Shown here: positions 7,192 to 20,760 of the stretch, piece by piece
Layout of the letters: each line of letters begins with the position of its first letter
Numbering within the stretch: position 1 is the stretch's first letter
Virus record (IMG/VR): IMGVR_UViG_3300021963_000786
Span: 1 to 20,921 of that record
DNA from: a virus
Strand: one strand, 5' to 3'
DNA: 20,921 bases
Notes under the pieces: generated by a model
The model's input: the letters and a program-made list of their open reading frames with translations, nothing else
Database searches by the model: none
Told to the model about the DNA's origin: nothing
Made by a program: the position numbers and the translations under genes

Positions 7192-7202
7192 GCAAATCTA
7201 TA

Positions 7203-7214
7203 TACATATAAATA
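7203..7214 (-). promoter_or_regulatory. Candidate late promoter upstream of the tape-measure operon
   Basis: The transcript-sense strand reads TATTTATATGTA, 11 bases before the tape-measure ATG and 8 bases after the stop of the frameshift extension. It matches the window-wide consensus TATTTATATAAA at its first nine positions. It would drive the tape measure and the four packed genes that follow, none of which has its own copy. Confidence 0.5.
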
Positions 7215-7222
7215 GAAACTCC

Positions 7223-7492
7223 TTACTTTCTAGCAACTTTTGTGCTGTAGGTAGGTGTGCTGATAGCAGGACCTATTGGTCTGGTATTCTCTACAGTAGC
7301 TTTTTGCTTATTCTGGGATCTTTCCATAGCTTCTTTTTCGTCGTCGTAGTGCTTTTCGATCATACGGAAAGTAAGCTTTCTCAGCCATATAGGCATGTTG
7401 TAGACTGTTTCCCAGTCGTAACCTCCTTTACCATGAAAGACTATTTCATGGATTTGACTAAACAGGGCTGTTCTATACTCAGGCGTCAGGCC
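7223..7492 (-). CDS. Frameshift extension of the tail-assembly chaperone, 89 aa
   Basis: An open frame starting GLTPEYRTALF and containing NMPIWLRKLTF, ending at TAA 7225-7223. It has no usable start at its 5' end: upstream in frame there is a TAG but no ATG, GTG or TTG, and the first ATG (7396) falls inside the NMPIW motif, 32 residues in. It is +1 relative to the gp26-like gene, which it meets exactly at the T7 run. It is therefore best read as the C-terminal part of a 328-residue (+1) or 329-residue (-2) fusion protein. In lambda (G/GT) and P2 (E/E') such extensions recruit the tape measure or tube during tail assembly; the same role is inferred here. The charged, helical C-terminal half fits a chaperone. 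Confidence 0.8.
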   Translation of the reverse strand, partial: GLTPEYRTALFSQIHEIVFHGKGGYDWETVYNMPIWLRKLTFRMIEKHYDDEKEAMERSQNKQKATVENTRPIGPAISTPTYSTKVARK

Positions 7493-8210
7493 AAAAAAAG
7501 TTAAGCCCGATTGGTAGATCGACGTCCTCCTCTACGCCGTTTACTACTACCTTTGTTGTGTAGTCAATACCTGGTAATAATGAGCTGTAATGCTCTCTAA
7601 AAGCTCTAGCTTCACGGGCCAAAAATGCATTATCTACGAAATCTCTAATGTCTTTCTGCTCTCTAGATCCGTTGATAGATGTGATAATATATTTTAGACG
7701 GGTAGTGACTTGTGTAGAAGACTCTTGGTTAATCTTTTGTAGACCCTTAATCTCTGCATCTATCTTACCTTCATCTCCGTGGGTAAGTAATCTAAAGGTG
7801 AGTACGTTTCCGGTGTCTGGTAATGAGTATGTAAACTCATTAGTACCGGCAGTATACTTGCTTTCATCTAGCTCCCTGGCCTGATAGGTTGTTAGATCTA
7901 CAGGATGTTCTTTTCCTTTATAAAAGAAAGAATATTCTTTTCCGTAGGATAGAATTCTAGCAGCTAGCATCAATGCATCTCTATCTCCAATCAAAAGATC
8001 ATTGTAACTGATAGGAGATACAATCATAGACTGCAAAAGCTTATCAATTGCAATGCCTTGACGTAGGTAGTTCTGGTTGGTTAGGATGTCTTCTTCTTTA
8101 GCGGTCATGTACTTCATTTCGACTTTTCCGCTGGCAAGAGGACTGTCTACCGGGTAGAGTAGACCTTTAGATGGAAGTTCAACGACTTCTGTAGGTAGGT
8201 TAAATGCCAT
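7479..8210 (-). CDS. Tail/baseplate assembly chaperone, T4 gp26-like
   Basis: A 243-residue protein beginning MAFNLPTEVVELPSKG, then GKVEMKYMTAKEEDILTN near residue 28. This is the pattern of the T4_baseplate (gp26-like) family: an extended ELPSKG strand followed by a compact helical domain. It ends IGLNFFWPDA and stops with TGA at 7481-7479, 12 bases past a TTTTTTT run. The product is probably non-virion or minor and assists baseplate-hub or tail-tube assembly. It lies between the tube terminator and the tape measure, the usual position of frameshifted tail-assembly chaperones, and a second frame continues past the slip site. The ATG is preceded by an AT-rich leader with a promoter-like motif and no clear Shine-Dalgarno sequence. 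Confidence 0.8.
   Translation of the reverse strand: MAFNLPTEVVELPSKGLLYPVDSPLASGKVEMKYMTAKEEDILTNQNYLRQGIAIDKLLQSMIVSPISYNDLLIGDRDALMLAARILSYGKEYSFFYKGKEHPVDLTTYQARELDESKYTAGTNEFTYSLPDTGNVLTFRLLTHGDEGKIDAEIKGLQKINQESSTQVTTRLKYIITSINGSREQKDIRDFVDNAFLAREARAFREHYSSLLPGIDYTTKVVVNGVEEDVDLPIGLNFFWPDA
7493..7499 (-). other. Slippery heptamer for programmed +1 or -2 frameshifting
   Basis: In sense orientation the codons are AAC TTT TTT TGG. With UUU in the P site and a UGG codon awaiting, Phe-tRNA can re-pair perfectly after moving +1 or -2. Either move places the ribosome on GGC and the 89-residue extension; -1 leads to a stop after two codons. A purine-rich AGGAGG lies at 7531-7526, 26 bases upstream of the run, farther than known internal SD stimulators usually sit. 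No strong downstream stem was visible. Confidence 0.7.
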
Positions 8211-8226
8211 ATTAATATAACTTTCT

Positions 8227-8238
8227 TTAATATAAATA
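8227..8238 (-). promoter_or_regulatory. Candidate late promoter upstream of the assembly chaperone
   Basis: Sense strand TATTTATATTAA, 16 bases before the ATG and 9 bases beyond the T-tract of the tube-gene terminator. The terminator-motif-gene order argues for a new transcript start here. Confidence 0.5.
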
Positions 8239-8247
8239 CGTTAAAAC

Positions 8248-8276
8248 AAAAAACCCGGCCATATAGACCGGGCTTT
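8248..8276 (-). terminator. Rho-independent terminator after the tail tube gene
   Basis: On the sense strand the arms AAAGCCCGG and CCGGGTTTT pair through five G-C pairs, a G-U and A-T pairs, with a TCTATATGG loop that can close two further pairs. The downstream arm runs into six T residues. It lies 24 bases after the tube stop, so it would end transcripts of this abundant protein before the chaperone gene. Confidence 0.85.
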
Positions 8277-8299
8277 GTGCTGTTTGACAGGGCGGGGGT

Positions 8300-8788
8300 T
8301 TAGAAGTTCAATACGCAGTAGTCCATTGAAAGCGTTAGTGTGATATTGATAGCTTCTGAAGCTGACCAATCGTACTGTCCGAAGTTCGAAGACTTAACGT
8401 AAGCACCTTTGATAATCCACTCACCGATAATATCACCTACTGGTCCTAGAGCGTTTAGAGTCACATCCTTCTTGTAGAAGTCTGAGTATCCAGCACGGCC
8501 GGTAACTGATTCGTATCCTAGACGAGCCCACTCCATAACGGCTTGTGCACCTGAAGGAGTGATTGGATCGTAAAGGTTAAGGGTCATGTCACTCCACATT
8601 CTCTTACCTCCACGAATCTTTCTGTAGGTGTTGATGTGGTCTAGCTGGATAGTACCATCCTCAAATGAAGGAGATGTTACACTCTTCACTAGGTAAGATG
8701 GAATTCCATCGATGTACATGATGAATCTGTTCTGCACCTTCGGTTCGAAGGCGGTGAACATGATTTCGTTTGGATCTAGTACTGGCAT
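8300..8788 (-). CDS. Tail tube protein, T4 gp19-like
   Basis: A 162-residue protein, almost the length of T4 gp19 (163). It starts MPVLDPNEIMFTAFEPKVQN, followed by FIMYIDGIPSYLVKSV and the SPSFEDG turn, and ends in a beta strand (ITLTLSMDYCVLNF). This matches the gp19/Hcp-like tube fold, which stacks as hexameric rings through which DNA passes. It follows the sheath gene by 27 bases and is followed by a strong terminator, so it can be transcribed with the sheath or alone from the motif at 8804-8815. No Shine-Dalgarno sequence precedes the ATG (leader AAACAGTAAC). Confidence 0.92.
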   Translation of the reverse strand: MPVLDPNEIMFTAFEPKVQNRFIMYIDGIPSYLVKSVTSPSFEDGTIQLDHINTYRKIRGGKRMWSDMTLNLYDPITPSGAQAVMEWARLGYESVTGRAGYSDFYKKDVTLNALGPVGDIIGEWIIKGAYVKSSNFGQYDWSASEAINITLTLSMDYCVLNF

Positions 8789-8803
8789 GTTACTGTTTTT
8801 ATT

Positions 8804-8815
8804 TATTTATAAATA
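8804..8815 (-). promoter_or_regulatory. Candidate late promoter upstream of the tube gene; two-way octamer
   Basis: Sense strand TATTTATAAATA, 15 bases before the tube ATG and directly after the sheath stop codon. It is the only copy holding the T4 late octamer TATAAATA on both strands (sense 8811-8804, antisense 8808-8815), because the core is palindromic. Confidence 0.5.
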
Positions 8816-10528
8816 TTACGCTCCAAAAGTTGCTCCTGTAGGCTGAACTACGAAGTCAAGTACGATGAATTCTGCAGTCTTGGTTGGCTGGATGAAGATC
8901 TGACCTACTAACTGGTTTCTATCGATAACGTCAGCAGTGTTGTTGGTGTCGTCCATCACAACTCTGTAAGCGTAAAGTCCTTGGCGCTGTACTACAGTCT
9001 CAAGGTATGGGTTAACAGCTGCTAAGAATCTGTTACGAGTAGCGATTGTGTTCTGCTCGAATACTAGGTTGTTAGCCTGATCTCCGATGAAGTTCTTAAG
9101 GTTGATAAGAAGTCTGCGAACATTTACGCGGTCTAATGCAGATGCCTTAGTCTGTAATGTCTTTTGTCCGTATGCTACTACACCAGAACCTGGGAAGGTA
9201 GCAATTGGGTTAACTTTACCTAAGTAAAGAGTATCTCTGTCGGTCTGAGAAAGCTTTCTTTCTGCCATGATCACTGAAGGAATACCTCCTCTTAGTAGAC
9301 CTGCTGGTGCGAACCATTCAGCACCTACTCTGTCAGTGAAGGCGTAAACACCTCCCATTACTGTTGAAGCAGGAGCCCAAACATTCTTTCCTAGTTCGTT
9401 GTTAGCTACCTTAACCCAAGGCCAGTAAGCGGCTGCGTATGAGCTGTTCATTCCTGAAGCTTCTGCTGTAGCAGTGGCTGTTGAACCTCCGTAGTTAACT
9501 GGGTCGATAACGTAGATTGCATCTCCTCTAGTTTCTACTAGATCGATGAATCCAGTAACTTGTGAAGAGTGTAGATCTTTTGTAAGACCTGGTGTTACAA
9601 GTACATTGAATCTGAACTCGTCTCTGTTTGCAAGAGTTAAGATTGCAGTGTCGTAGGCTGTTGAAGGAGCAATACCCTGTGTGTCGGTAGAGGTTAGTGA
9701 TGTAAAGTTAGCAGCGTATGCAGACTGGAATAATGTTCCTGCACCTCCAGAGAAGGCTCCGTGTAGTGATCCGCTACCGATTACAAAGTTAGCAAACGAT
9801 GCTGAGTATGCTGAATTAGCTACTCCGTTGTTATCAAGGTAGTCAGGCATCTTAGTGTTAACGGCAGATACATAAACGTACTTAGATACATTTGGATATT
9901 CTCCGTTTACAGTCACGGCACCGGCTGAGTTAGTACGGTACTGATCACCGATTACTTTTGCAACGTAGTTAGGTGATTTTGGATCAAGTGATAGGTTCTG
10001 GTAAGATTCAAGGATGATCTTATTTTTCTCATTATCATCTCCTCTTCTGATTGCGAGTGAGAAAGTTCCTTGAGCTGTATTCTTAGAAGTTACTTCCCAT
10101 CTTACGTTGTCAGCAGAGCCGCTTACAAGTGCGTTGTTTGTACCGGCACTTCCGCTGTTATTCATGATCGTACCCTCTGCAATAGTAGATAGAGTGATCC
10201 AGGCTGTAGAACCGCTATTGATTGTAGCAGTAGCTGCTCCAAAGTTCTGATCAGATACTCTGGTTACTAAGAGAGAAGTTCCGCCTTGTTCAAAGTACTT
10301 TTCAGCAGCAAGGGCAGTGTAGTGGGTGTAGTAGTCACTACCTGATTTAAAAGCACCGCCGAATACATTTAAGTACTCGCCGTAAGAACGCACTACAGTT
10401 GGGATGTCTTGTGGACCTTTAGTAGTAGGACCTACAAGAGCTGTAGAGATCTCGGCGGCTGCTGGGGTGATGAAAGACAGGTCATTCTCTCTTGAAAATA
10501 CACCTGGTGATAAAATTCTTTCTGCCAT
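8816..10528 (-). CDS. Contractile tail sheath protein, T4 gp18-like
   Basis: A 570-residue protein (T4 gp18 is 659). The N-terminus ILSPGVFSRENDLS is the usual sheath start. The C-terminal core carries LSQTDRDTLYLGKVNPIATF at about residues 426-445, GVVAYGQKTL, and SALDRVNVRRLLINLKNFI around 460-480. It ends in strands like those that interlock sheath subunits. The middle, about residues 100-330, is Ser/Thr/Ala-rich and probably forms the surface-exposed domain. Sheath subunits surround the tube and contract to drive it through the envelope. A promoter-like motif lies 22 bases upstream, and the leader AACCCTTCCCAACG lacks any Shine-Dalgarno sequence. Confidence 0.95.
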   Translation of the reverse strand: MAERILSPGVFSRENDLSFITPAAAEISTALVGPTTKGPQDIPTVVRSYGEYLNVFGGAFKSGSDYYTHYTALAAEKYFEQGGTSLLVTRVSDQNFGAATATINSGSTAWITLSTIAEGTIMNNSGSAGTNNALVSGSADNVRWEVTSKNTAQGTFSLAIRRGDDNEKNKIILESYQNLSLDPKSPNYVAKVIGDQYRTNSAGAVTVNGEYPNVSKYVYVSAVNTKMPDYLDNNGVANSAYSASFANFVIGSGSLHGAFSGGAGTLFQSAYAANFTSLTSTDTQGIAPSTAYDTAILTLANRDEFRFNVLVTPGLTKDLHSSQVTGFIDLVETRGDAIYVIDPVNYGGSTATATAEASGMNSSYAAAYWPWVKVANNELGKNVWAPASTVMGGVYAFTDRVGAEWFAPAGLLRGGIPSVIMAERKLSQTDRDTLYLGKVNPIATFPGSGVVAYGQKTLQTKASALDRVNVRRLLINLKNFIGDQANNLVFEQNTIATRNRFLAAVNPYLETVVQRQGLYAYRVVMDDTNNTADVIDRNQLVGQIFIQPTKTAEFIVLDFVVQPTGATFGA

Positions 10529-10550
10529 CGTTGGGAAGGGTTAATTAATC

Positions 10551-10562
10551 TTTATATAAATA
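10551..10562 (-). promoter_or_regulatory. Candidate late promoter upstream of the sheath gene
   Basis: A perfect TATTTATATAAA on the sense strand, 22 bases before the sheath ATG and 20 bases after the stop of the 349-residue gene. It is one of four copies identical to the consensus. Confidence 0.55.
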
Positions 10563-10582
10563 TGTTACTTGATTGCAAACCA

Positions 10583-11632
10583 TTAGACTGCGAAGTAAGA
10601 AGATATGACGTTTGAGCCTAATACTACACTTCCTGACAGCTGTAAAGGAACTTGCTTGGTTGCTAGACTTCCTGTAGTTTCTACTGCAAAGGGGTTTCCA
10701 ATTGGTTCTTGGAAAGTGTATACTCTAAATACTCCTGGAACGCTTGTCAGATCCTTAGGTTTGAGCTGTCCTTTTACTACTTTGGATACAGTATCGTCAT
10801 AGAATACACCGGCACTTAGCGGTGCGGTAGGTGTAATCTTCTTAAATGCAACAAATCCTATGCTGCCTGCGAAGTTTCTACCAGGCTGGAACTGAGTACC
10901 TCCGATATAGAGGTGGTCTGCGGTTGCAAAAGAAGCACTCATTCCTGTAGCACTTCCAAAAGTACCGTATCCTTCGTTCGATGTGCCTACATAGAAACTT
11001 GCTCCTGTTAAAGGCTGTGTGGCTCCGGTAGAGCTCAATAGGTTATAAGTTATCAGAGTGTAGCCGTTACCTAGAGTCCCTCTTTGATTTGCCGGTACTG
11101 AAATAGTTTGCGTGTAAGTTGCTCCATTATCCTGGAAGACAGCTGTTAGTTGGCTATTTTGTAAGACAAGACTAAATGACTGGCTGGCAAAGCTGCCTGA
11201 GTACATATGGAAGAGAGTCTGGATACTTCCAGTCTGCCAAATGAATGGCTTGATTGCCATCATAATTCCAAAGGAGCTAGTTAGGTTGACCGGTAGGTCA
11301 ACATTTTCTAAGCTAGAGCTTGCAATATTCTCAAAAGTAAAATATGCTGCAGTTTTACTCCATTCTACGGGAACTGTGCTTGCTGCTGGAGTTGGAGTTG
11401 GAACCGGTGCCGGTGGTGGTGGTGGGATGGTAGCAGGTGCCTGTAGAGAAACAGGAGCCGGTGCATTAACAAATGCTGATACTGCCGGACGGGCATTAGC
11501 CGGTGCTGATAATCCTCCTGTCTGTGTTGGAGGCACTACACCACCCGGGGCAAGATTTGAATACTGCAGACGGTACTGCTGTGCCTGGGTAGAGCTAGGC
11601 TGTAGCAACGATTTTTTATCTCCTATGGCCAT
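10583..11632 (-). CDS. Lectin-like (LamG/concanavalin fold) structural protein, 349 aa
   Basis: N-terminal region: a Gln-rich start (MAIGDKKSLLQPSSTQ) and an Ala/Pro-rich linker with a proline run, IPPPPPAPVPTPTP, near residues 68-81. From about residue 93, AYFTFENIASSSLENVDL begins a beta-sandwich region resembling LamG/concanavalin-like domains, with HLYIGGTQFQPGRNFAGSIG near residues 243-262 as the typical late strand. Such folds bind glycans or decorate virions. The gene sits just upstream of the sheath and below a terminator, so it may be a tail or capsid decoration or an adhesin. It lacks the catalytic residues that would mark a glycanase, as far as I can see. The domain call rests on pattern, not on alignment. 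Confidence 0.7.
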   Translation of the reverse strand: MAIGDKKSLLQPSSTQAQQYRLQYSNLAPGGVVPPTQTGGLSAPANARPAVSAFVNAPAPVSLQAPATIPPPPPAPVPTPTPAASTVPVEWSKTAAYFTFENIASSSLENVDLPVNLTSSFGIMMAIKPFIWQTGSIQTLFHMYSGSFASQSFSLVLQNSQLTAVFQDNGATYTQTISVPANQRGTLGNGYTLITYNLLSSTGATQPLTGASFYVGTSNEGYGTFGSATGMSASFATADHLYIGGTQFQPGRNFAGSIGFVAFKKITPTAPLSAGVFYDDTVSKVVKGQLKPKDLTSVPGVFRVYTFQEPIGNPFAVETTGSLATKQVPLQLSGSVVLGSNVISSYFAV

Positions 11633-11646
11633 AATGGGAAAAGATT

Positions 11647-11658
11647 TTTATATAAATA
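11647..11658 (-). promoter_or_regulatory. Candidate late promoter upstream of the 349-residue gene
   Basis: A perfect TATTTATATAAA on the sense strand, 14 bases before the ATG, separated by one base from the T-tract of the preceding terminator. Confidence 0.55.
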
Positions 11659-11659
11659 G

Positions 11660-11684
11660 AAAAAGAGGGCCTAAACCCTCTCTT
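11660..11684 (-). terminator. Rho-independent terminator after the 92-residue gene
   Basis: The sense-strand arms AGAGGG and CCCTCT enclose the loop TTTAGG, and the second arm is followed by TTTTT. It lies 23 bases after the stop codon of the coiled-coil gene. The stem is short (6 bp) but the T-tract follows immediately. Confidence 0.8.
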
Positions 11685-11707
11685 CCTGTAGCACGGCATG
11701 CAAGTGC

Positions 11708-11986
11708 TTATTCTGCTGCTGGAGCTTCTTCGGCCTTAGGAGCTGGTACGAACTCGCCTGTAGAAAGGTCTACAGTACCATCGCCGTACTTCTCAGAAAG
11801 ATCCTTTCCGAAGGTGTTTTCTTCTTCACGAAGCTCGGCTAAGAATTTCTTAGCATTTTCAGCTCTACGCTCTAGGTTAAGCTTGATCAATTCGATCTCG
11901 CCAAACTCCATTACGATAGCGCGGTTTTTTTCTTGAAGCTGCTGGATTGTTTGCAGTTCTTCTTGAGAAAGTTTTGTGTTTTCCAT
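11708..11986 (-). CDS. Small coiled-coil phage protein, 92 aa, function unknown
   Basis: Residues 5-60 form an almost continuous heptad-rich helix (LSQEELQTIQQLQEKN onward), then LSEKYGDGTVDLSTGEF, and an Ala/Glu/Pro tail. I recall similar small proteins, helix plus a KYGxGxxDLxTGxF end, as recurrent unnamed proteins of environmental phages. Acidic and soluble, it could be a scaffold, chaperone or minor structural helix bundle. It has its own promoter-like motif 33 bases upstream and its own terminator, so it appears to be a single-gene transcription unit. That suggests a dose different from its neighbours. Confidence 0.8.
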   Translation of the reverse strand: MENTKLSQEELQTIQQLQEKNRAIVMEFGEIELIKLNLERRAENAKKFLAELREEENTFGKDLSEKYGDGTVDLSTGEFVPAPKAEEAPAAE

Positions 11987-12019
11987 ATTATAACGTTAAT
12001 TTAGTTTTAACCGGTTAGT

Positions 12020-12031
12020 TATATATAAATA
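12020..12031 (-). promoter_or_regulatory. Candidate late promoter upstream of the coiled-coil gene
   Basis: Sense strand TATTTATATATA, 33 bases before the ATG and 17 bases after the stop of the 130-residue gene. The leader that follows contains the palindrome AACCGGTT and a TATAAT immediately before the ATG, so a second start point is possible. Confidence 0.45.
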
Positions 12032-12048
12032 TATGCAAAAAATGTTTT

Positions 12049-12441
12049 TTAACAACCTCTCTGTGCAGTTATTTTTCCTGCTGAGTCTATTTCATAAACA
12101 GTGTTGCCGGATTTGTACCATAGTACTCCTCCGTTAAAAGAAGTAGAGAGAGTATTATCCGTATACAGGCTAACGTTAACACCTAGGGAAGTACTAGAAG
12201 AATATAATGTAATCGGATCATAGGCTTCAGCACAGGCTTGAGACCAGTCACTGTATCCTTGCTGTCCGTCTCCCATATAAAAAGTATATGCTGTAGCAAA
12301 GGTAAATCCGTAAAATTCATTTATACTGTCCGGAGTTGAAAATCCGGCTGCAGCATGCAGGGTTCTAAAGTCATTAGCGCTAGATCCTAGCTCGGTTTTA
12401 ATATCACTCAAAGATATGGGTCCGTTACTTTGTAAGGTCAT
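12049..12441 (-). CDS. Fibre-associated protein with SLSDIK/EFYG N-terminal module, 130 aa
   Basis: The N-terminal part, about residues 1-48, reads GPISLSDIKTELG and later SINEFYGF. This module is seen at the start of many phage fibre or adhesin proteins and also opens the 368-residue protein at 19653-20759. The C-terminal part has SLYTDNTLSTSFNGGVLWY and ends in Cys, a small aromatic/glycine-rich beta domain resembling repeats at the tips of phage fibres. Its start codon overlaps the end of the giant S74 fibre gene by 17 bases, so the two are probably translationally coupled and act together at the fibre tip. The function is inferred from the module and neighbourhood. Confidence 0.8.
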   Translation of the reverse strand: MTLQSNGPISLSDIKTELGSSANDFRTLHAAAGFSTPDSINEFYGFTFATAYTFYMGDGQQGYSDWSQACAEAYDPITLYSSSTSLGVNVSLYTDNTLSTSFNGGVLWYKSGNTVYEIDSAGKITAQRGC

Positions 12442-15400
12442 GAATAAGTGCTTTTAGTTCATCGATTTGCTTTTGCTGTTGATCAATCAAGGCTTGCTGA
12501 TCTTTAATTGCTTCAATCAGTAGGCCGGCCATGTTTCCGTAAGCTACATTATACATTCCGGAAGCATCCTGAGATACTACTTCTGGTACTACTGCCAGTA
12601 CTTCCTGGGCGATAACTCCCATATTAGTACTTCTATCATCAGAATCTGTTCTTTTAAAGGTCACACCTCTTAGCTGTTTTACCTTCTCTAAAGCATTTCC
12701 GATGGTCTGGATGTCGGTTTTAATTCTGGCATCAGAGTAACCTGTTACGTTACCGGCAAAGGTTACGTTACCGGACATATCAAGCTGCATTCTGTTTGCA
12801 GATGCACTCCATCCTCCGATACGCAGTACGTTATCGTCGTCAAGCCCCATATTTACAGCATAATGTCCTGATTTATGGAAGGACATAAATGCCGAGTTAT
12901 TGTTTGTTGAATAAGCTTGAAGTTTTGCAGAGTCTGTTGCTCCTGATTTACCTCCGTTGTTTGTCTGGAAGTATGCAATGCCTGTTACAGTCCCTCCTGA
13001 TAACGGTAGAGCGTAGCTTGAATAGTTACCAGCATGTAATACAGCATTACCGGTAGTTATACCCCCGCTAGTTCCGTTAACATACAGCATACCGCGGATC
13101 TTTGTATTACCACTTCTGTCAATGCTTAGACGGGCATGATGTCTGTCATCCCCGGACCATGCATCACCAACGCCGTAGTGCGGGTTATTATCTCCACTTG
13201 CATTATATCCAATACTGAAGATATAAGGGTTACTGTTTGGTATACCCATATTCCACTGTCTTGCGGAACTTCCTTCTGTTCCTACAAAAGAAAATACAGC
13301 TCCGTGATTTGTATTGTTGGCACCGGTTGCAACAAGAGCTATATGTGGGTAGTAGTCTGCAGATACTACAAGCTGTTTTCTTGCATCGTCTGCCGTATAT
13401 ACACCGTGTGTTGATGCATTTCCTACATTAAGAGATACCCCGCTTGAAACACCGGTAGCATTAAGCTGGCCGGCAACAGTAGTTCCGCTATTAAGTACGA
13501 TAGCATTTCCTACCGGGTTTAGGTACAACGGCTGGCCAGAATGCGATTGAACGTAAGAATAAGATCCGTTATTTCCAATGGAGATTGTAAAATTATTTAC
13601 ATTATTTGGATTGGTTGTGCCTCTTAGGAATCTTCCGTCTGATTCACTTTCTGTGTAGTAACGGTCATCATGAGTATGAGAAGATGCAGCTTTACCGTCT
13701 AGTGCAGTCTGCAGTCCTGTTACATCAGAAATAGCGTGGGTGTGAGAAGATGCTGCATAGGAGCCTCGAGCCTGGAAGTATTCATGTAGCCATCCGTATG
13801 TATTAGTCCAAAGATCTCCGTTGGTATTTAGGATCATTCTTCTGGTGCTATCGGCAGATCCTCCGTAATACCATATGTAAGCATAGGCTCCGCCTCCGTG
13901 ATCGTTAGTATTACCATCAGTTCGGAAAATCATAGTTCGGCTGTTGCCGTAGAGCTGTACCTGATTATCATCGCTAGTTGCTCGGAACCAAGCATCAGCA
14001 GTGTAGTAACTTCCTAAGTTAGTGGCTGTGGTAGCGGTAGTAGCAGAACCTGCTGAGGTTGCATAGTTTACAGACTGTGATCCAATGTTAGCAGATGTAA
14101 TGATATCCACCCATGAGCTCCAGTTGTCGCAACAGTCTCTTAGTGTACGCAATCTTAGACTGGGGCTGGTAGTGCTCAACCAGTCTGCTGATAGTTCGAA
14201 TGCTCTACTACTGAATGCAAATTGAGCTGCTATATCATAAGTAGAAGGTGAATTAGAACCGCCAGAATATGCTCCATAGATAGCCAGTCCATTATCTACT
14301 TTTAATCTTCTATCAGTATCATAACTAATTCCTCCTCCAAGTACTTTAAAATTACTTGTAGATACTCTTGCTCCAAGCAGGCTGTCTACTTCTGATTCGG
14401 TGTAGTAACGGTCATCGTGGTTGTGAGAGGGTAAGGAAGTTAGATAGGATCCTGCTGCTTGTTTACCGTCTAGAGCTGTCTGTAATCCTGTCACATCTGA
14501 GATAGCGTGGGTGTGGGAAGAGGCTGCTTTAGTAGCTAGCTTTGTATCAATTTCAGATTCGGTATAGTACCTATCGTCGTGGGTATGAGATATGGCTGCA
14601 TACCTAGAATCAAACTGAGATTGCTTTTTGGTACGTAGTCCGTCTATACGGGCACTGTTTACTTGGTTGAGTCTAAGCGGTGCTGGAGCAGCAACGTCGT
14701 AAGCGTTAGTACCAGACCAGCTTTCATCGTAGAACAAAGTCGAGGTGCTGTAGGCAATATCCGGAGTACCTTCTTGATAGGTTCCTCTAATAGGCTGGTC
14801 AGAGAAAATATGGTAGATAGCCCCGGTAGTCCCACCGCCTCTAAGCATGAATACATATCCCATAGAGTGGGTCCAGATAAACATATCCGCACACACATCG
14901 GTATAGGACTGGTTAAATACTCTAAGTCTATCGTAGTATTCGGCTCCGCCCCAGCCTCCAAAGTTACCTTCCCAATCTAAGAGAAGTCCACCATGGTGTA
15001 CCCCGGTACCAATAGGGTCCCAAGGGGCCTGTTCACCGTATCCGCGTTTGATAATAATCCTACGAAGTACATCCTGATCCCCAAACATAAAGTGCACTGG
15101 GTAGAAGGTATCCGGATCTCCATTTAGTACGATATCGCAGGAGTACGGAAGGCCTGTAACACCTAGAGTTGTCTTTAGCTGGTTAACCTGAGTTCTTGAA
15201 ATATCTGAAACGCTTATTCTATTTCCTAGTGCGGTACTCAGCCAGCCGTTTGTAGTTGAATAAAAGTCACCTCCATTGCTGAAGTAGAATTTGTCTCCGT
15301 CTCCGTTTCTATGTAACCCTAAATTACCGGAATCGGTGGTTACCCACCAGTAGGCTCCTGTGCTTGTATTGTTCCAAGCCTGAGAGTATCTGTCAGAGTT

Positions 15401-17116
15401 GTATCTAAATTCTACTCTACCGGAAATATTACCTCCTGTTGAAGCAAATTTTGAATCTAAAGATGTCTGTAAGTTGGTTACATCTGAGATAGCGTGGGTA
15501 TGAGAAGAAGCTGCATAAGATCCTGCTGCTTGTTTACCGTCTAAAGCTCTTTGTAGATCTGTTACATCGGAAATAGCATGGGTGTGAGAAGATGCTGCAT
15601 ATGAACCAGCAGCCTGCTTACCGTCTAAAGCTGTTTGCAGACCTGTAACGTCTGAGATGGCGTGGGTGTGAGAAGAAGGAGTAAACGAAGAAGGCTTATT
15701 GTAGATTAAGTCCCAGTGTGTCTCTGAGGTCTGTGTTCCGTCTGTATCTACTTCCTTAGACCATCCTATACCCTGTAAGTGTAGTCTTCCGCTCTGATTG
15801 GTGATGCGTAGTGCTCGCATTCCATCCAATCCAGATACTTTAATGATCTGTTGACCGTCGTGGTTCCCGCTATGACTGGTATTTTCAATGGTATTTTTGG
15901 AAAGGAATCTTCCTCTAAATACAAGAGACCCGTCTGACATTACAGCATGAACATCAAAGTATCCACCGGTATCCCACCTTAACTGTCCAATATAAGCAGT
16001 TGTGTATCCGGAAGGTATGTTATATTGTACATAACCCGGGGCATCGTTCCAGCTATATCCTGCTGTAGAATCATTACCTGGTTTGTAGTCTCCCCAAGAT
16101 GAGTCATTTGATGATTCATTCCAAGTTCCAGATTTTTCATCTTCGGCGGTTATAGCTGTTTGTGCTGCAAAATCGTTTAATACAAATCTAGCATCGGATT
16201 CAGTTTCGGTGTAGTACCGGTCATCGTGAGTGTGCGAAGATGCTGCTTTTCCATCCAGAGCTGTTTGTAGCCCGGTAACATCTGAGATAGCATGAGTATG
16301 AGATGCTGCTGCATAAGTACCTGCTGTAACACTAAAAGTAGTACCTGATAATGTTAAACCGGTACCTGCACTGTAGGTTGTATTTGTGTCAGTATCGGTT
16401 GAAGAGATTGTCAGTGTATTGGTAGTGGTGTCGTAGTTAACTGCGGTTGCTCCTGAACCTCTAACGATCAGAGTATTCCCAGATCCAATTGTTTCTGATC
16501 TTGTAGAATCACTAATAGTCCATCCTCCGTAGTTATCGGCACTAGCTGCAATACCGTCTAGCTTGGTTTTTAAAGCTGTTGTAAAGTTCTTCTCTGTTAA
16601 TCCTCCGTCTCCTACTGAGTAGGTGGTGTTTGTGTCTGTTGAAGAGATAGTAAATGTGCCGTTGCTGTAACTTACCGTGGTTGCTCCCGATCCTGCAAAG
16701 GTAAAGTCTCCGGCTACTAGTGTACCGCCGGACTGTCTTAATCTAGTAACTGTGTTAGTAGGAGTTTGCCAGGTTCCGTCTCCTCTTAGAAACTGCAGAG
16801 CCTGTCCTGAAGTTGCTGCAGGTACGTATCCTGCTATACCGTCAGAGCCTTCGCTTCCTCCTATGGCTGCTCCTGAAGCTCCTTCGTAAGTTTTAGCATT
16901 TAAAATTCCTGAGGAGATAGTAAGAGTATTTCCTACTTTGATTCCTCCTAAGACTGTTGATGTGGCAGTGGGTAGAGAATATCCGGAAACCGATCCGGCA
17001 ATAACGTTACCTTGGGCGTCAGTACCTAGTACATTCTGACTGGTTAGATTCTCTAATTTAAGGTGTGCTAAAGATCCTGAAGATCCGTGCAACACCACTT
17101 TTTTCCATGATGGCAT
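12425..17116 (-). CDS. Giant tail fibre with HxH repeats and C-terminal S74 autoprotease chaperone
   Basis: A 1563-residue fibre. The N-terminus MPSWKKVVLHGSSGS is shared with the 255-residue neighbour and is probably the attachment module. Ten HTH/HNH motifs occur as six HTHAISDVT and four H(T/N)HDDRYYTE units. In T4 gp37, HxH motifs coordinate iron along the trimer axis, and the same is expected here. Residues about 655-810 form a distinct Trp/Gly-rich globular segment. The last 103 residues, from SDARIKTDI, form a peptidase S74 intramolecular chaperone with candidate dyad S1461/K1466; trimer-dependent self-cleavage before S1461 is the family mechanism. It ends in a Gln/Leu coiled coil. It overlaps the 130-residue gene. 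The leader is the longest in the window and holds two small hairpins. Confidence 0.92.
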   Translation of the reverse strand: MPSWKKVVLHGSSGSLAHLKLENLTSQNVLGTDAQGNVIAGSVSGYSLPTATSTVLGGIKVGNTLTISSGILNAKTYEGASGAAIGGSEGSDGIAGYVPAATSGQALQFLRGDGTWQTPTNTVTRLRQSGGTLVAGDFTFAGSGATTVSYSNGTFTISSTDTNTTYSVGDGGLTEKNFTTALKTKLDGIAASADNYGGWTISDSTRSETIGSGNTLIVRGSGATAVNYDTTTNTLTISSTDTDTNTTYSAGTGLTLSGTTFSVTAGTYAAASHTHAISDVTGLQTALDGKAASSHTHDDRYYTETESDARFVLNDFAAQTAITAEDEKSGTWNESSNDSSWGDYKPGNDSTAGYSWNDAPGYVQYNIPSGYTTAYIGQLRWDTGGYFDVHAVMSDGSLVFRGRFLSKNTIENTSHSGNHDGQQIIKVSGLDGMRALRITNQSGRLHLQGIGWSKEVDTDGTQTSETHWDLIYNKPSSFTPSSHTHAISDVTGLQTALDGKQAAGSYAASSHTHAISDVTDLQRALDGKQAAGSYAASSHTHAISDVTNLQTSLDSKFASTGGNISGRVEFRYNSDRYSQAWNNTSTGAYWWVTTDSGNLGLHRNGDGDKFYFSNGGDFYSTTNGWLSTALGNRISVSDISRTQVNQLKTTLGVTGLPYSCDIVLNGDPDTFYPVHFMFGDQDVLRRIIIKRGYGEQAPWDPIGTGVHHGGLLLDWEGNFGGWGGAEYYDRLRVFNQSYTDVCADMFIWTHSMGYVFMLRGGGTTGAIYHIFSDQPIRGTYQEGTPDIAYSTSTLFYDESWSGTNAYDVAAPAPLRLNQVNSARIDGLRTKKQSQFDSRYAAISHTHDDRYYTESEIDTKLATKAASSHTHAISDVTGLQTALDGKQAAGSYLTSLPSHNHDDRYYTESEVDSLLGARVSTSNFKVLGGGISYDTDRRLKVDNGLAIYGAYSGGSNSPSTYDIAAQFAFSSRAFELSADWLSTTSPSLRLRTLRDCCDNWSSWVDIITSANIGSQSVNYATSAGSATTATTATNLGSYYTADAWFRATSDDNQVQLYGNSRTMIFRTDGNTNDHGGGAYAYIWYYGGSADSTRRMILNTNGDLWTNTYGWLHEYFQARGSYAASSHTHAISDVTGLQTALDGKAASSHTHDDRYYTESESDGRFLRGTTNPNNVNNFTISIGNNGSYSYVQSHSGQPLYLNPVGNAIVLNSGTTVAGQLNATGVSSGVSLNVGNASTHGVYTADDARKQLVVSADYYPHIALVATGANNTNHGAVFSFVGTEGSSARQWNMGIPNSNPYIFSIGYNASGDNNPHYGVGDAWSGDDRHHARLSIDRSGNTKIRGMLYVNGTSGGITTGNAVLHAGNYSSYALPLSGGTVTGIAYFQTNNGGKSGATDSAKLQAYSTNNNSAFMSFHKSGHYAVNMGLDDDNVLRIGGWSASANRMQLDMSGNVTFAGNVTGYSDARIKTDIQTIGNALEKVKQLRGVTFKRTDSDDRSTNMGVIAQEVLAVVPEVVSQDASGMYNVAYGNMAGLLIEAIKDQQALIDQQQKQIDELKALIHDLTK
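13625..13767 (-). repeat. Fibre repeat cluster nearest the C-terminus (DRYYTE plus ISDVT units)
   Basis: Encodes one HTHDDRYYTE unit and one HTHAISDVT unit with the TALDGK linker. The DNA is close to the clusters at 14395-14610, 15470-15685 and 16190-16320. Confidence 0.8.
14395..14610 (-). repeat. Fibre repeat cluster, three HxH units
   Basis: Encodes HTHDDRYYTE, HTHAISDVT and HNHDDRYYTE units separated by GLQTALDGKQAAGSY. The HNH variant is the only departure from HTH among the ten motifs. Confidence 0.8.
15470..15685 (-). repeat. Fibre repeat cluster, three tandem ISDVT units
   Basis: Three consecutive HTHAISDVT units spaced by about 30 residues of LDGKQAAGSYAASS. This is the most regular tandem in the fibre and a likely site for length change by recombination. 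Confidence 0.8.
16190..16320 (-). repeat. Fibre repeat cluster nearest the N-terminus
   Basis: One HTHAISDVT unit followed by one HTHDDRYYTE unit that ends in SDARF, at about residues 265-308 of the fibre. Confidence 0.8.
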
Positions 17117-17179
17117 ATATTACTATTTATCGAGGTTGGTTACAGGTAGTGCCTGCCCACTTCCCTTTCGGGCCTTCAA
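17117..17179 (-). promoter_or_regulatory. Structured leader of the giant fibre gene
   Basis: A 63-base leader, long for this window. It can form CCC-GAAA-GGG (17158-17171 region) and CAGG-CACTA-CCTG (17144-17156 region), both short. GATAAATA lies 7 bases before the ATG. No Shine-Dalgarno sequence is seen. The hairpins might modulate translation or stability, but the stems are only 3-5 bp. Confidence 0.3.
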
Positions 17180-17191
17180 CTTTAATAAATA
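17180..17191 (-). promoter_or_regulatory. Candidate late promoter upstream of the giant fibre gene
   Basis: Sense strand TATTTATTAAAG, one base after the stop of the 59-residue gene and 63 bases before the fibre ATG. It is a variant copy, as at 18775-18786. Confidence 0.45.
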
Positions 17192-17192
17192 G

Positions 17193-17372
17193 TTAGCTAC
17201 CTCCTAGTGTGATGTACTGGTTCTGTAGTTTGACTACCGCTCTGGTTAAGATATCCAGTTCTTCACCGGTAAATCTCATCTTCTTGATCTTAATCAAAAT
17301 GAATTCTAGCTCCTCAACCGTTAGCTGGTTAGGATCTGCTTGTTTCTGTGTAACCTTATCTAATAACCCCAT
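17193..17372 (-). CDS. Small protein, 59 aa, function unknown
   Basis: ATG at 17372-17370 opens a 59-codon frame ending with TAA at 17195-17193. The product begins MGLLDKVTQKQADPNQLTVE and continues as a basic amphipathic helix pair (IKIKKMRFTGEELDILTRAV) ending LGGS. The codon and amino-acid pattern looks real: charged helices, no low complexity. It exactly fills the gap between the 255-residue protein and the fibre leader, and it lies 19 bases after the upstream stop. It may assist fibre assembly or be a minor structural protein. I do not recognise a named family. Confidence 0.8.
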   Translation of the reverse strand: MGLLDKVTQKQADPNQLTVEELEFILIKIKKMRFTGEELDILTRAVVKLQNQYITLGGS

Positions 17373-17391
17373 AAAACTTTAAAATTAATTC

Positions 17392-18159
17392 TTATAGACC
17401 CGGACCGTCTGGTGCATTACCTTCAGGGGCTGTACCTCCTGAGGACTGTCCTGTTTCTACGTAAATGTAAACATCCCCGGTGGCAGTGTCTACGTGCATG
17501 TTGCCGATGCCGTTGTTTGTTCCACCAAATCCTGGAGCAGTTGCTGGAGCTCCTGAGGTAGGACTAAATGTTGAGGATACTGCCCAGGCAGCGATCGTAG
17601 CGCCGGCCGTAGTAACGGGTGTACCCTTGCTAAAGCCCCATCTAACAACGTTGTTGTTATAGGCAAAGCCGTAACCTACTTCTGTACCTGTAACTGAACC
17701 TGATACTACTACAATACCTCCATTTCCTCCAGAGGTAGTGCCGCTACCAAGAGCGATGTACTTATCTTCAACTGCTAGGTTAGTGGTACTAATAACTGTA
17801 GTAGTACCGTTAACTGTTAAGTCACCGGAAATAGTAACGTTATCGCTGAAGGTCTTATCACCTCCAATGGTCTGTGCGCCGGAAGTCTTAACTACATCCG
17901 TTAGCTGAGCTGAAGAAGAAACTAATCCAATTGCTCCGGCCAGTTTAGCAGCCGTAACTGCGCCGGCAGCAAGTTCGGTAGTACCTACAGCCCCGGCTGC
18001 AATCTGGGCACTGCCAGCATTGCCGGTCAGATCACCGCCCATCGTAATTTGTGCCGAACTTGATACTAGTCCCGACGGTAGTCCTGTTATGTAACCGGCA
18101 TCGTTAGCAAGCTGGGATACGTTGCTGCCCGATACTAAGAGTTTCTTCCACTGTGCCAT
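17392..18159 (-). CDS. Short tail-fibre-like protein sharing the giant fibre's N-terminal module
   Basis: 255 residues. The start MAQWKKLLVSGSNVSQL parallels MPSWKKVVLHGSSGS of the 1563-residue fibre. Repeated GLVSSSAQ (about residues 28 and 78) and Ala/Gly repeats (AAGAVGTTELAAGAVTAAKL) follow, then DLTVNGTTTVISTTNLAVED, typical of beta-helical phage fibre shafts. The C-terminus is Gly/Pro-rich (APEGNAPDGPGL). No S74 domain is present. It may be a connector or a second fibre using the same baseplate socket. A perfect promoter-like motif lies 20 bases upstream. Confidence 0.8.
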   Translation of the reverse strand: MAQWKKLLVSGSNVSQLANDAGYITGLPSGLVSSSAQITMGGDLTGNAGSAQIAAGAVGTTELAAGAVTAAKLAGAIGLVSSSAQLTDVVKTSGAQTIGGDKTFSDNVTISGDLTVNGTTTVISTTNLAVEDKYIALGSGTTSGGNGGIVVVSGSVTGTEVGYGFAYNNNVVRWGFSKGTPVTTAGATIAAWAVSSTFSPTSGAPATAPGFGGTNNGIGNMHVDTATGDVYIYVETGQSSGGTAPEGNAPDGPGL

Positions 18160-18179
18160 ATTGCTGCTGTCTGTTTTAC

Positions 18180-18191
18180 TTTATATAAATA
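18180..18191 (-). promoter_or_regulatory. Candidate late promoter upstream of the short fibre gene
   Basis: A perfect TATTTATATAAA on the sense strand, 20 bases before the ATG and three bases after the stop of the 189-residue gene. Confidence 0.55.
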
Positions 18192-18194
18192 GGT

Positions 18195-18764
18195 TTAAGG
18201 TCCTAGAGTTCCTCTATCTGCATTTGCTTCACCTGGATCTCCGGTAAATCCTACGTAGTATCCTTCCGGTAGTACGGCACTGCCGGAGATATACACCAGT
18301 CCTGAAACTAGCGGGGGCAGTACGCTCTTAGGTTGCATGAAAGGAATACCTGTTGAAGTGATTCCAAACTGAATGTTGTTATTAGTATCCCGGGCAGTAA
18401 AGGTATGATTGCTTCCTGTAGCAACTACATTGACCTGGGCTAGATTTATCTGACTGTTCAGACTGATAACTAATGCTCCGTTTTCAACCCGGGTATTAAC
18501 GTTGGAACCTCCAATAGCCGATAGGTTGGTCTGTGCTATATTAAAGGTTACTGTACCTGTGTTACCTCTTAGGGTGAGGTTTGAACTTACTATTCCGGTA
18601 GTAGTTCCGGTCATAGAGCCGCCGTTGGCTGTTGAAGTAGCTGCTGTAGTGACAATATTGTCAACAGTACCGGTAGATGGGATAGTACTCTTGATGATCT
18701 TACCTGTGTTATCTACTGCAAGAGTAGATCTAAGCTCGGTTAATCTAAGGGTACGTAATGCCAC
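18195..18764 (-). CDS. Beta-rich structural protein, probable fibre component, 189 aa
   Basis: Begins at GTG (18764-18762), giving MALRTLRLTELRSTLAVDNT. No ATG is available upstream before the promoter-like motif, so GTG is chosen. The body is Thr/Asn/Ser/Gly-rich with alternating strands, as in fibre shafts. A hydrophobic VLPPLVSGLVYISGSAVLPE segment precedes a short Gly/Pro end. It lies between a terminator-promoter pair and the short fibre gene. No enzyme motif or signal peptide was seen. Fibre or collar component is the best guess, from composition and position only. Confidence 0.75.
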   Translation of the reverse strand: MALRTLRLTELRSTLAVDNTGKIIKSTIPSTGTVDNIVTTAATSTANGGSMTGTTTGIVSSNLTLRGNTGTVTFNIAQTNLSAIGGSNVNTRVENGALVISLNSQINLAQVNVVATGSNHTFTARDTNNNIQFGITSTGIPFMQPKSVLPPLVSGLVYISGSAVLPEGYYVGFTGDPGEANADRGTLGP

Positions 18765-18774
18765 AGGAATAGTT

Positions 18775-18786
18775 TTTTAATAAATA
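18775..18786 (-). promoter_or_regulatory. Candidate late promoter upstream of the 189-residue gene
   Basis: Sense strand TATTTATTAAAA, 10 bases before the GTG start and two bases after the preceding terminator. Confidence 0.5.
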
Positions 18787-18788
18787 GG

Positions 18789-18811
18789 AAAAGCCGGCTA
18801 TTGCCAGCTTT
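18789..18811 (-). terminator. Rho-independent terminator after the 121-residue gene
   Basis: The sense-strand arms AAAGCTGGC and GCCGGCTTT pair over nine positions (one G-U) around the loop AATA, with TTTT at the end. It lies 22 bases after the stop codon. Confidence 0.8.
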
Positions 18812-18833
18812 CACCTTAAATTTAATTAAATTC

Positions 18834-19199
18834 TTAAAGAATATCGATCGAACCTGAAAATGTAGGTAAGGTCTTGATGTGGTTGTAAGCCTGCTCAATC
18901 CAAGTATCTTCGCTGGTAAGATCGTAGTTGAATGAGAAGTGAGTTCTTGCTAGAGACTCTGAATGAGCTGTTCTAGCTGCTTCTGTTGCATAGGTCTCAA
19001 CTTCACCGTTACCGTAAGCTCTTTTAGCCCACTGATTTTCGTACACAGGTGGAATGATGCTTCCGCTAACACCTACTGATCCGGTTACTACCATTACTGG
19101 CTGGATGTACTCCTCGATTCTGTAGTTAAGATTTACAATACGGTGGTAAGCGTCTTCGAATGTTACGCCAAATTTTGAAAAGTCTTTTTGTAAGCCCAT
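18834..19199 (-). CDS. Conserved-looking phage protein, 121 aa, function unknown
   Basis: A soluble, mixed alpha/beta protein starting MGLQKDFSKFGVTFEDAYHR. It has a strand VVTGSVGVSGSIIPP in the middle and SFNYDLTSEDTWIEQAYNHI near the C-terminus. I recall small proteins of this pattern in fibre regions of environmental myophages without assigned function. It is flanked by a promoter-like motif 9 bases before the ATG and a terminator, so like the 92-residue gene it appears to be its own transcription unit. It could be a fibre chaperone or a minor structural protein. Confidence 0.75.
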   Translation of the reverse strand: MGLQKDFSKFGVTFEDAYHRIVNLNYRIEEYIQPVMVVTGSVGVSGSIIPPVYENQWAKRAYGNGEVETYATEAARTAHSESLARTHFSFNYDLTSEDTWIEQAYNHIKTLPTFSGSIDIL

Positions 19200-19208
19200 C
19201 TTTTAATT

Positions 19209-19220
19209 TTTATATAAATA
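19209..19220 (-). promoter_or_regulatory. Candidate late promoter upstream of the 121-residue gene
   Basis: A perfect TATTTATATAAA on the sense strand, 9 bases before the ATG and three bases after the preceding stop codon. With so short a leader, a transcript from here would be nearly leaderless. Confidence 0.55.
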
Positions 19221-19223
19221 GTT

Positions 19224-19472
19224 TTATTCTACGTCAACATTAGGTTCTGCACCTTCTAAGTCTACTTTAACGATTTTGTATACACGGCCTGTTTCATCAG
19301 CCGCTGTTAAAGCATTCTTTTTAGTTCTAGCAGCCGTTAGAGTTGTAGTTTCGTCAATAGTATCTTCGCTATTGATTTTCTGTACCCATACCTGACGTTT
19401 TGCCCATGAAGGATCTGAAGCGTTTAAGGGTACAGGGATTAGCTGCTTGTAAATTACATACTTGTAAGCCAT
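19224..19472 (-). CDS. Small protein, 82 aa, function unknown
   Basis: Begins MAYKYVIYKQLIPVPLNASD, a beta hairpin, then RQVWVQKI and a Thr/Ala-rich helix (TLTAARTKKNALTAADETGR), then an acidic end. Its ATG lies two bases after the stop of the CGC-motif protein, so the two are coupled. There is no promoter-like motif in the tiny gap. I recognise no family. Position suggests a part of the fibre-assembly cluster. Confidence 0.7.
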   Translation of the reverse strand: MAYKYVIYKQLIPVPLNASDPSWAKRQVWVQKINSEDTIDETTTLTAARTKKNALTAADETGRVYKIVKVDLEGAEPNVDVE

Positions 19473-19474
19473 GT

Positions 19475-19636
19475 TTAATCTTTTTTATATGGAAATAATT
19501 GGTTTAATCTTTCTTGTCTTTGTTTGCAACCGCAATCTTTTTTTCCTCTTGCTGTAGCCATTTTTTCAGCCAGACGGTCTAAACCGGTAGCATGAGTAAC
19601 TCTTGCAATTGAATCTCCTAAGCCCTTATCTTCCAT
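19475..19636 (-). CDS. Small CGC-motif protein, 53 aa
   Basis: ATG at 19636-19634 and TAA at 19477-19475. The product starts MEDKGLGDSIARVTHATGLD and ends DCGCKQRQERLNQLFPYKKD. The CxC followed by a basic helix and LFPY is a pattern I recall from small proteins of many marine and environmental phages, where it has no assigned role; the two cysteines might bind metal with a partner or as a dimer. AAAGGA stands shortly before the ATG, one of the few Shine-Dalgarno-like leaders here. It fills the space between the 368- and 82-residue genes. Confidence 0.8.
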   Translation of the reverse strand: MEDKGLGDSIARVTHATGLDRLAEKMATARGKKDCGCKQRQERLNQLFPYKKD

Positions 19637-19652
19637 AGTCCTTTTATTATAA

Positions 19653-20759: not shown

Positions 20760-20760
20760 A

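Follow-up and report, generated by a model that had tools for sequence, protein, structure and literature searches.

The late promoters of phage T4, which are used together with gp55, gp33, and gp45, are described as a single -10-like element without a -35 element (PMC2988020, PMC7892883), and the sections of the former source drawn on here place the start of the T4 late octamer, TATAAATA, at -13. The same sections give the late consensus of KVP40, 44RR, and S-PM2 as highly similar to that of T4, and the late promoter of Aeh1 as a close variant with a/gC at -13/-12 (PMC2988020). A second point of reference is the primary-sigma promoter of Bacteroidota, which combines TTTG at -33 with TANNTTTG at -7 in the parts of PMC6847099 used here, where these bacteria are also described as lacking Shine-Dalgarno sites. 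Here, we analyze a motif with the core TATTTAT(A) that recurs between the genes of a virus record (IMG/VR IMGVR_UViG_3300021963_000786, positions 1 to 20,921). This whole 20,921-base stretch is referred to as the window, and the 21 frames taken as genes in it all lie on the minus strand. The initial annotation had read the motif as a phage-specific late promoter, and this reading is supported by the position and orientation of the copies, their enrichment in the virion block, and their conservation in relatives. We consider TATTTAT(A) very likely to be a late promoter. A search of the open PMC literature returned no title or abstract on this motif in these phages.

The initial annotation reported ten 12-mer copies, four of them identical to the consensus, at 9-63 nucleotides (nt) before a start codon and mostly with the T4 octamer on the opposite strand. 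All ten were found, on the minus strand, i.e., the same strand as the genes there:

7203..7214, minus strand: motif copy TATTTATATGTA, before the tape-measure-like gene 5161-7191
8227..8238, minus strand: motif copy TATTTATATTAA, before the hub gene 7479-8210 and just after a terminator-like hairpin
8804..8815, minus strand: motif copy TATTTATAAATA, before the tail-tube gene 8300-8788
10551..10562, minus strand: motif copy TATTTATATAAA, before the tail-sheath gene 8816-10528
11647..11658, minus strand: motif copy TATTTATATAAA, before gene 10583-11632 and just after a terminator-like hairpin
12020..12031, minus strand: motif copy TATTTATATATA, before gene 11708-11986
17180..17191, minus strand: motif copy TATTTATTAAAG, in the gap before the tail-fiber gene 12425-17116, 63 nt from the start
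18180..18191, minus strand: motif copy TATTTATATAAA, before gene 17392-18159
18775..18786, minus strand: motif copy TATTTATTAAAA, before gene 18195-18764 (GTG start) and just after a terminator-like hairpin
19209..19220, minus strand: motif copy TATTTATATAAA, before gene 18834-19199

The copies at 10551, 11647, 18180, and 19209 are exactly TATTTATATAAA, a recalculation by hand, counting from the 12-mer's low end to the start codon, gave the same range of 9-63 nt, and 8 of the 10 copies carry TATAAATA on the opposite strand. What the copies have in common is TATTTAT(A), not the whole 12-mer, and those at 17180 and 18775 read TATTTATTAAAR.

On its coding strand, the window contains TATTTAT 10 times, in every case in an intergenic position. 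Three more on the opposite strand (8800, 8804, and 17124) are intergenic as well, and the first two overlap a near-palindromic stretch of copy 8804. The annotation had named equal abundance inside genes as a result that would speak against a promoter, and 0 of these 13 occurrences on both strands of the window fall in genes, with only 762 of the 20,921 bases being noncoding (675 without the left end, 1-87). Among the gaps of at least 12 nt, 10 of 13 contain TATTTAT. Of the three gaps without it, 7397-7478 is probably coding: a 57-residue open reading frame (ORF) at 7223-7396 continues upstream in frame without a stop and reaches into the end of the hub gene (region 7223-7513); five shorter gaps, of 1-6 nt, are too small for the motif. 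Shuffling the gaps with dinucleotides preserved yielded a mean of 0.56 and a maximum of 4 gaps with TATTTAT in 2000 shuffles versus the 10 observed, and TATTTATA is present in 8 gaps versus a shuffle mean of 0.23 and a maximum of 3. By orientation, the window holds 8 sense TATTTATA versus 1 TATAAATA. The crude gene caller that was used for the relatives scored 9 sense-intergenic copies, 3 antisense-intergenic copies, and 1 copy in a called gene when applied to the window, the lower sense count arising because it admitted one plus-strand ORF.

The window encodes a contractile-tail module comprising sheath, tube, hub, a LysM-size baseplate protein, a large tail fiber, and others. By sheath comparison, the isolate nearest to the window is Flavobacterium phage immuto (160 kb, 52.7% identity), in which the order of eight window tail genes is kept. 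Three of the genes that stand behind a motif copy were compared across relatives:

8816..10528, minus strand: tail sheath gene (phrog_23, E 1.3e-71), behind copy 10551
8300..8788, minus strand: tail tube gene (phrog_4542, E 6.5e-21), behind copy 8804
7479..8210, minus strand: baseplate hub gene (phrog_150, E 6.2e-11), behind copy 8227

The conservation set combined the best 80 of the sheath-encoding IMG/VR loci listed with the window, immuto, and the long contigs G015 and G016. Within it, the 80 nt upstream of orthologous starts were scored after identical upstream regions had been merged (sheath 79 to 68, tube 82 to 67, hub 64 to 57); loci were dropped when their start was unreadable or when less than 60 nt upstream was available. 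Sense TATTTAT precedes the tube gene in 65 of 67 distinct loci (all 65 being TATTTATA), the sheath gene in 66 of 68 (TATTTATA in 44), and the hub gene in 55 of 57 (TATTTATA in 47), although the sheaths of the relatives are only ~49-80% identical to that of the window, i.e., they differ at ~20-51% of positions while the word is retained. Sense TATAAATA was found before 1/67 tube, 0/68 sheath, and 0/57 hub genes. The antisense 7-mer ATAAATA occurs in 16/67 tube gaps, mostly through an A-rich stretch after the motif, and in 1/68 sheath and 2/57 hub gaps, so that the antisense orientation, whose equal frequency the annotation would have counted against a promoter, is rare in the latter two. Composition shuffles of the same upstream regions gave TATTTATA means of 0.8 (tube), 1.6 (sheath), and 2.7 (hub), with maxima of 4, 5, and 8 in 200 shuffles. 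The backward control ATATTTAT, present in 61/68 sheath, 57/67 tube, and 52/57 hub gaps, is uninformative because it overlaps the motif itself. Before three gene kinds that have no real gap in the window, TATTTAT occurs in 1/11, 0/21, and 0/15 loci (1/47 in total), which extends to the relatives the earlier observation that coupled genes lack the motif.

In the loci that lack TATTTAT in the tube gap (L038 and L055) or in the sheath gap (L081), TATGTATAA or TACGTATAA is found at a similar place and is perhaps a co-varied variant of the motif. In addition, a TTTTGA/TTTCGA-like block stands about a dozen bases upstream of the motif in the sheath gap of many loci, and it was not seen in the tube gap.

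Across the whole genome of immuto, the motif favors the virion block. A simple expectation-maximization (EM) motif finder, run on the gapped upstream regions of immuto by genome block, returned cTATTTATAaa as the first de novo motif in the 78-160 kb block, which carries the virion genes, TTCnTATATTTAGgTATc in the 60-78 kb block of small genes, and TTTCtTATATT in the 1-60 kb block. With "late" assigned from gene content, TATTTAT is present in 24 of 43 late gaps and 11 of 73 others in immuto (Fisher 7e-6), and TATTTATA in 17/43 versus 7/73 (Fisher 2.4e-4), whereas antisense TATAAATA is found in 3/43 and 4/73. Equal frequency before early genes had been anticipated as a further counterargument, and the motif is in fact rarer outside the virion block of immuto. 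Of the immuto copies, 24/30 on the plus strand and 7/15 on the minus strand are intergenic, in a genome with 7371 of 160,410 bases noncoding. In relatives of 40-43% GC, the 8-mer is nearly restricted to gaps, as in contig G006, with 13 sense intergenic copies, 1 sense coding copy, and no antisense copy. Two contigs of 33% GC have 11 sense intergenic versus 9 coding copies (G004) and 11 versus 7 (G003), and gaps amount to only ~2% of such contigs by crude gene calls, so that the motif is far thinner in genes than between them. Further afield, in the complete phage Mel-JY01, recorded from Microcystis, a targeted count found TATTTAT in 9 of 21 block gaps (antisense 2/21), the tube gap included, among 22 copies in the whole 38.3-kb block, and de novo EM there gave only Shine-Dalgarno.

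A tract belonging to the terminator of the upstream gene, or simply the AT-rich composition of the gaps, might account for such a word, but we hold this to be very improbable. The gaps are indeed AT-rich, and gene-blind strand counts, which carry little meaning in AT-rich records, show the word there about as commonly as the backward control and are balanced in contig G001 (46 and 43); the shuffles described above nonetheless fail to reproduce the motif counts, and antisense copies would not be expected to be so scarce in the sheath and hub gaps. crAss001 is a phage of Bacteroidota, like immuto, and has its own RNA polymerase. In the 49-kb stretch of it that was examined, 0 of 8 copies of TATTTATA/TATAAATA lie between genes. 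As for terminators, 14 terminator-like sites were found at 7000-20921 versus 9.4 expected by chance, and the three best-scoring ones stand directly upstream of motif copies:

8250..8276, minus strand: terminator-like hairpin, upstream of copy 8227
11658..11687, minus strand: terminator-like hairpin, upstream of copy 11647
18789..18812, minus strand: terminator-like hairpin, upstream of copy 18775

These three copies follow hairpins as a terminator tract would, but the other 7 of 10 have no listed hairpin beside them. At some copies, then, the order is terminator, motif, gene. By eye, the order in Mel-JY01 before gene 14755 and the tube gene is hairpin, motif, separate Shine-Dalgarno site, and start codon, and in T4 hairpins likewise precede TATAAATA, which is followed by the start.

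An element in the leader that acts in translation initiation or mRNA processing is another way to read a word near start codons, and one to which we give little credence, if slightly more than to a terminator or compositional origin. The spacing between 7-mer and start codon clusters gene by gene in the relatives (sheath 18-37 nt, median 28; tube 14-27 nt, median 17; hub 14-32 nt, median 29), and the hosts may belong to the Bacteroidota, for which PMC6847099 describes, in the parts used here, the absence of Shine-Dalgarno sites. However, this distance is not near-constant, as that of a ribosome-binding site would be: it varies from 14 to 37 nt overall, also among orthologues of one gene, and the window copies range over 9-63 nt. 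Genes without gaps do without the motif, and several Mel-JY01 genes have a GGAGA-type site separately between motif and start. In T4, the end of the octamer is 14-28 nt from the start, with one case at 73 nt. Both order and spacing within the gaps are thus more like those of a promoter than those of a ribosome-binding site.

The comparison with T4 shows several likenesses, but the word itself differs. Both elements appear as a single -10-like box with no -35 partner, and both stand before virion genes (for the motif, as judged from gene content), after hairpins, and ahead of short leaders, as far as the T4 system is covered by the sections of PMC2988020 and PMC7892883 used here. On the plus-strand virion block of T4, we counted 10 sense TATAAATA versus 0 TATTTATA, and in tandem gaps 3/15 versus 0/15; with divergent gaps included, the figures are 9/23 and 6/23. 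The sense word of the aquatic phages is TATTTATA, and neither the window nor its relatives use sense TATAAATA in the T4 manner, in line with the initial suggestion that, if a gp55-like sigma is involved, its recognition would be inverted or different. KVP40, 44RR, S-PM2, and Aeh1 also have a single octamer before late genes, but in the account of PMC2988020 consulted here theirs stays near the T4 consensus, whereas the aquatic-phage word is its reverse complement. We rejected the idea that the copies are inverted T4 promoters facing the other way, since the window genes are all on one strand and the orientation of the motif tracks the genes in relatives.

A separate class of candidate promoters in immuto and contig G016 provides an internal contrast. 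Their small-gene motif (in immuto mainly at 60-78 kb) is a candidate bipartite early-type promoter, GTTG-N20-TATATTTAG[GA]T. At the TATATTTAG[GA]T sites, TTG lies exactly 20 nt upstream in 18/18 cases in immuto (GTTG in 16/18, TTTG in 0/18) and in 17/17 in G016, versus 0/17 and 0/29 for the late sites of the two genomes. At spacers of 17-23 nt, TTG accompanies 4 of 17 immuto late sites (background 11.5%) and TTTG 2 of 17, i.e., the late sites lack a -35 element, as do those of T4; two of the four have a spacer of 22 nt and fit a hybrid early/late type. By these spacing counts, the early-type class is bipartite and host-promoter-like, and a single box makes up the late class. Strict TATATTTAG[GA]T sites in noncoding DNA number 0 in G015, 0 in G002, and 1 in G001. 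A looser GTTG-N-TATATT was found at spacer 20 only (17-22 tried), with 23 sites in G016, 5 in G015, 8 in G002, and 0 in G001.

These data bear on whether the late motif might be read by the host primary sigma together with a phage activator, and not by a phage sigma, a reading that we judge unlikely, if less so than the two above. By comparison with the Bacteroidota promoter as given in the parts of PMC6847099 used here, the late motif is also an AT-rich -7-type box, TATTTATA agrees with TANNTTTG at four of six fixed positions, and the early-type motif of immuto, with its bipartite TTG-N20-TATATTTAG, resembles the host promoter. In the hub gap, moreover, 35 of 57 loci have TTG-N20-TATATT superimposed on the late core (sheath 0/68, tube 0/67), and the T-rich block upstream of the motif in the sheath gap could be seen in the same light. 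Nevertheless, the late motif departs from TANNTTTG at two of the six fixed positions and has no regular -33 partner, it also occurs in Mel-JY01, whose recorded source Microcystis is a cyanobacterium, and the phages of the lineage have a protein whose predicted fold is sigma-like.

This protein is the product of immuto gene 153 (78174-78872, 232 residues), annotated "hypothetical." The initial annotation had proposed a genome search for a gp55-like factor, and in immuto, the closest complete relative, such a search yields gene 153 as a candidate with a gp55-like predicted fold. The profile of phrog_234, the family that includes T4 gp55, had one match in 10 records, gene 153 (E 0.008 in a one-genome search), and it also matches 2 of 14 cellular control genomes; the phrog_12791 profile had no match in the records searched. 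The family of gene 153 spans at least 80 loci, plus Mel-JY01 (36%) and the 484-kb phage LR756508 (40%), and its homologues among complete or long relatives are found in immuto, G015, G016, Mel-JY01, and LR756508. With E<=1 allowed, Sigma70_r2 picks up 26 of the 37 aligned members, the best of them, at 0.0072, still falling short of the cut-off, and the next family matches 5 of 37 (best 0.0025). A Sigma70_r2 search of 13 genome records at E<=1 returned only T4 gp55 (E 0.0045) and the G016 homologue (E 0.011), both below the cut-off. The predicted structure of gene 153 (predicted local distance difference test [pLDDT] 77.5, predicted template modeling score [pTM] 0.58) aligns with T4 gp55 in the open complex (7d7c_F) over 127 residues at a root mean square deviation of 6.9 with Z 10.1, a score to which the aligner's own caution applies that a Z under ~13 may reflect an arrangement common to helical proteins. 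All 50 listed structural matches, a re-alignment of Foldseek's own candidates, are by title sigma-factor or RNA-polymerase entries. In the predicted model, gene 153 thus has the fold of sigma region 2. Among the sequences of solved structures, a profile search listed no sigma.

The location of the gene is what would be expected if its product were made early and turned on the late block: it lies past the last TATATTTAG[GA]T site, which is in the gap before 76244, and a TATTTATA site at 78885 comes directly after it; seven immuto TATTTATA sites have lower coordinates than the gene. Taken together, gene 153 is probably a divergent sigma factor, on weak sequence evidence and a predicted fold. If the motif is a late promoter, it is likely that this family reads it.

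Apart from the aligner's caution, several observations weigh against a late promoter paired with this sigma. The loci compared are mutually related and are not independent trials. In immuto, TATTTATA is also present in 7 of 73 non-late gaps; two of these seven exceptions precede a lectin-domain gene and a stretch with chitinase and holin, which may themselves be late, and the genes behind the remaining five have no known role or no informative name. The motif appears to extend across a larger part of the genome in G015 and G016 than in immuto, and the sheath gap of Mel-JY01 has no motif. LR756508 encodes a gene 153 homologue yet has TATTTAT in 0 of 40 gaps around its sheath gene by crude gene calls, and no clear de novo motif emerged there. 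On the side of the sigma, phrog_234 was not listed when gene 153 was compared with all PHROGs (hmmscan, E<=0.05), and the Sigma70_r2 genome search missed immuto and G015 at E<=1. Foldseek alone gave a weak best E of 0.45, in a row that is a sigma factor, and hhalign against seven gp55 sequences (of eight loci, Atu_ph07 being left out) gave a collinear but weak alignment of 1-105 to 1-107 (P 0.012, probability 3.5). No sigma gene is present among the genes of the 20.9-kb window fragment, nor was a sigma found at E<=0.1 in 18 partial contigs (G001 and G002 included), most of which carry the motif, where local hidden Markov models gave weak fragments only. These misses in partial contigs may reflect incompleteness or divergence.

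Weighing both sides, we find it rather more probable than otherwise that the two parts hold together, i.e., that the motif is a lineage-specific late promoter read by the phages' own gp55-like sigma. For this lineage-wide single-box promoter candidate that favors late genes, the best reading is a late system like that of T4 in which the octamer is reversed and the sigma has diverged. In such a system, TATTTAT(A) would act in vivo as a lone -10-like element, without a -35 counterpart, that lies behind the end of one late transcription unit and 9-63 nt ahead of the start codon of the next. Host RNA polymerase with the phage sigma of the gene 153 family would recognize it, and transcription would restart at most gaps of the tail-gene block. 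The T4 octamer starts at -13 and so ends at -6; by analogy, initiation would occur 6 bases past the last base of TATTTATA, which would give leaders of ~8-62 nt in the window (by hand).

Two features would set this system apart from that of T4. First, neither a T4-type clamp (phrog_223; T4 control E 3.4e-86) nor a bacterial beta clamp (PF00712; controls positive in 11/14) was detected in any of five relatives, where a diverged phage clamp or the host clamp may take the place of a recognizable one. Second, at its C-terminus the sigma candidate carries an additional helical domain of ~100 residues, which is predicted confidently (101 residues, pLDDT 90.5, pTM 0.81). Sigmas of the gp55 family have no region 4 themselves, and gp33 serves as its mimic. 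We do not claim a sigma region 4 in this domain, for which the best Foldseek E is 1.5 and the best VIA-align Z, 5.9, sits among unrelated rows. Section 9 of the T4 review by Geiduschek and Kassavetis asks why no fused, one-piece late sigma is known, which in their account either is absent from nature or has yet to be discovered (PMC2988020). The immuto-type protein could conceivably be one, with a gp55-like region 2 and a C-terminal domain in the role of gp33 on the flap, reading the inverted octamer with no phage clamp; we regard this as a doubtful, speculative proposal.

Other features of the window were also observed. The fiber gap, 17117-17192, holds a TATTTAT on the opposite strand (17124-17130) close to the start codon in addition to the sense copy at 17180, with a possible GC-rich stem between the two by eye. 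The frame cut at the window end (20761-20921) resembles by eye the C-terminal end of the large tail fiber 12425-17116, which suggests two fiber genes with similar ends. In the baseplate protein 692-3715, residues ~840-986 have matches among endolysin, transglycosylase, and tape-measure families.

For a phage sigma that works with one short promoter element, late transcription in T4 is the classic example. The aquatic phages, a large group of which most members are uncultured, appear to rely on the T4 word in reverse complement, with a diverged sigma and no clamp detected. If confirmed, this would represent a second design of late control, make late genes easy to recognize in metagenomic contigs, and allow the reason for the two-part late sigma of T4 to be tested.

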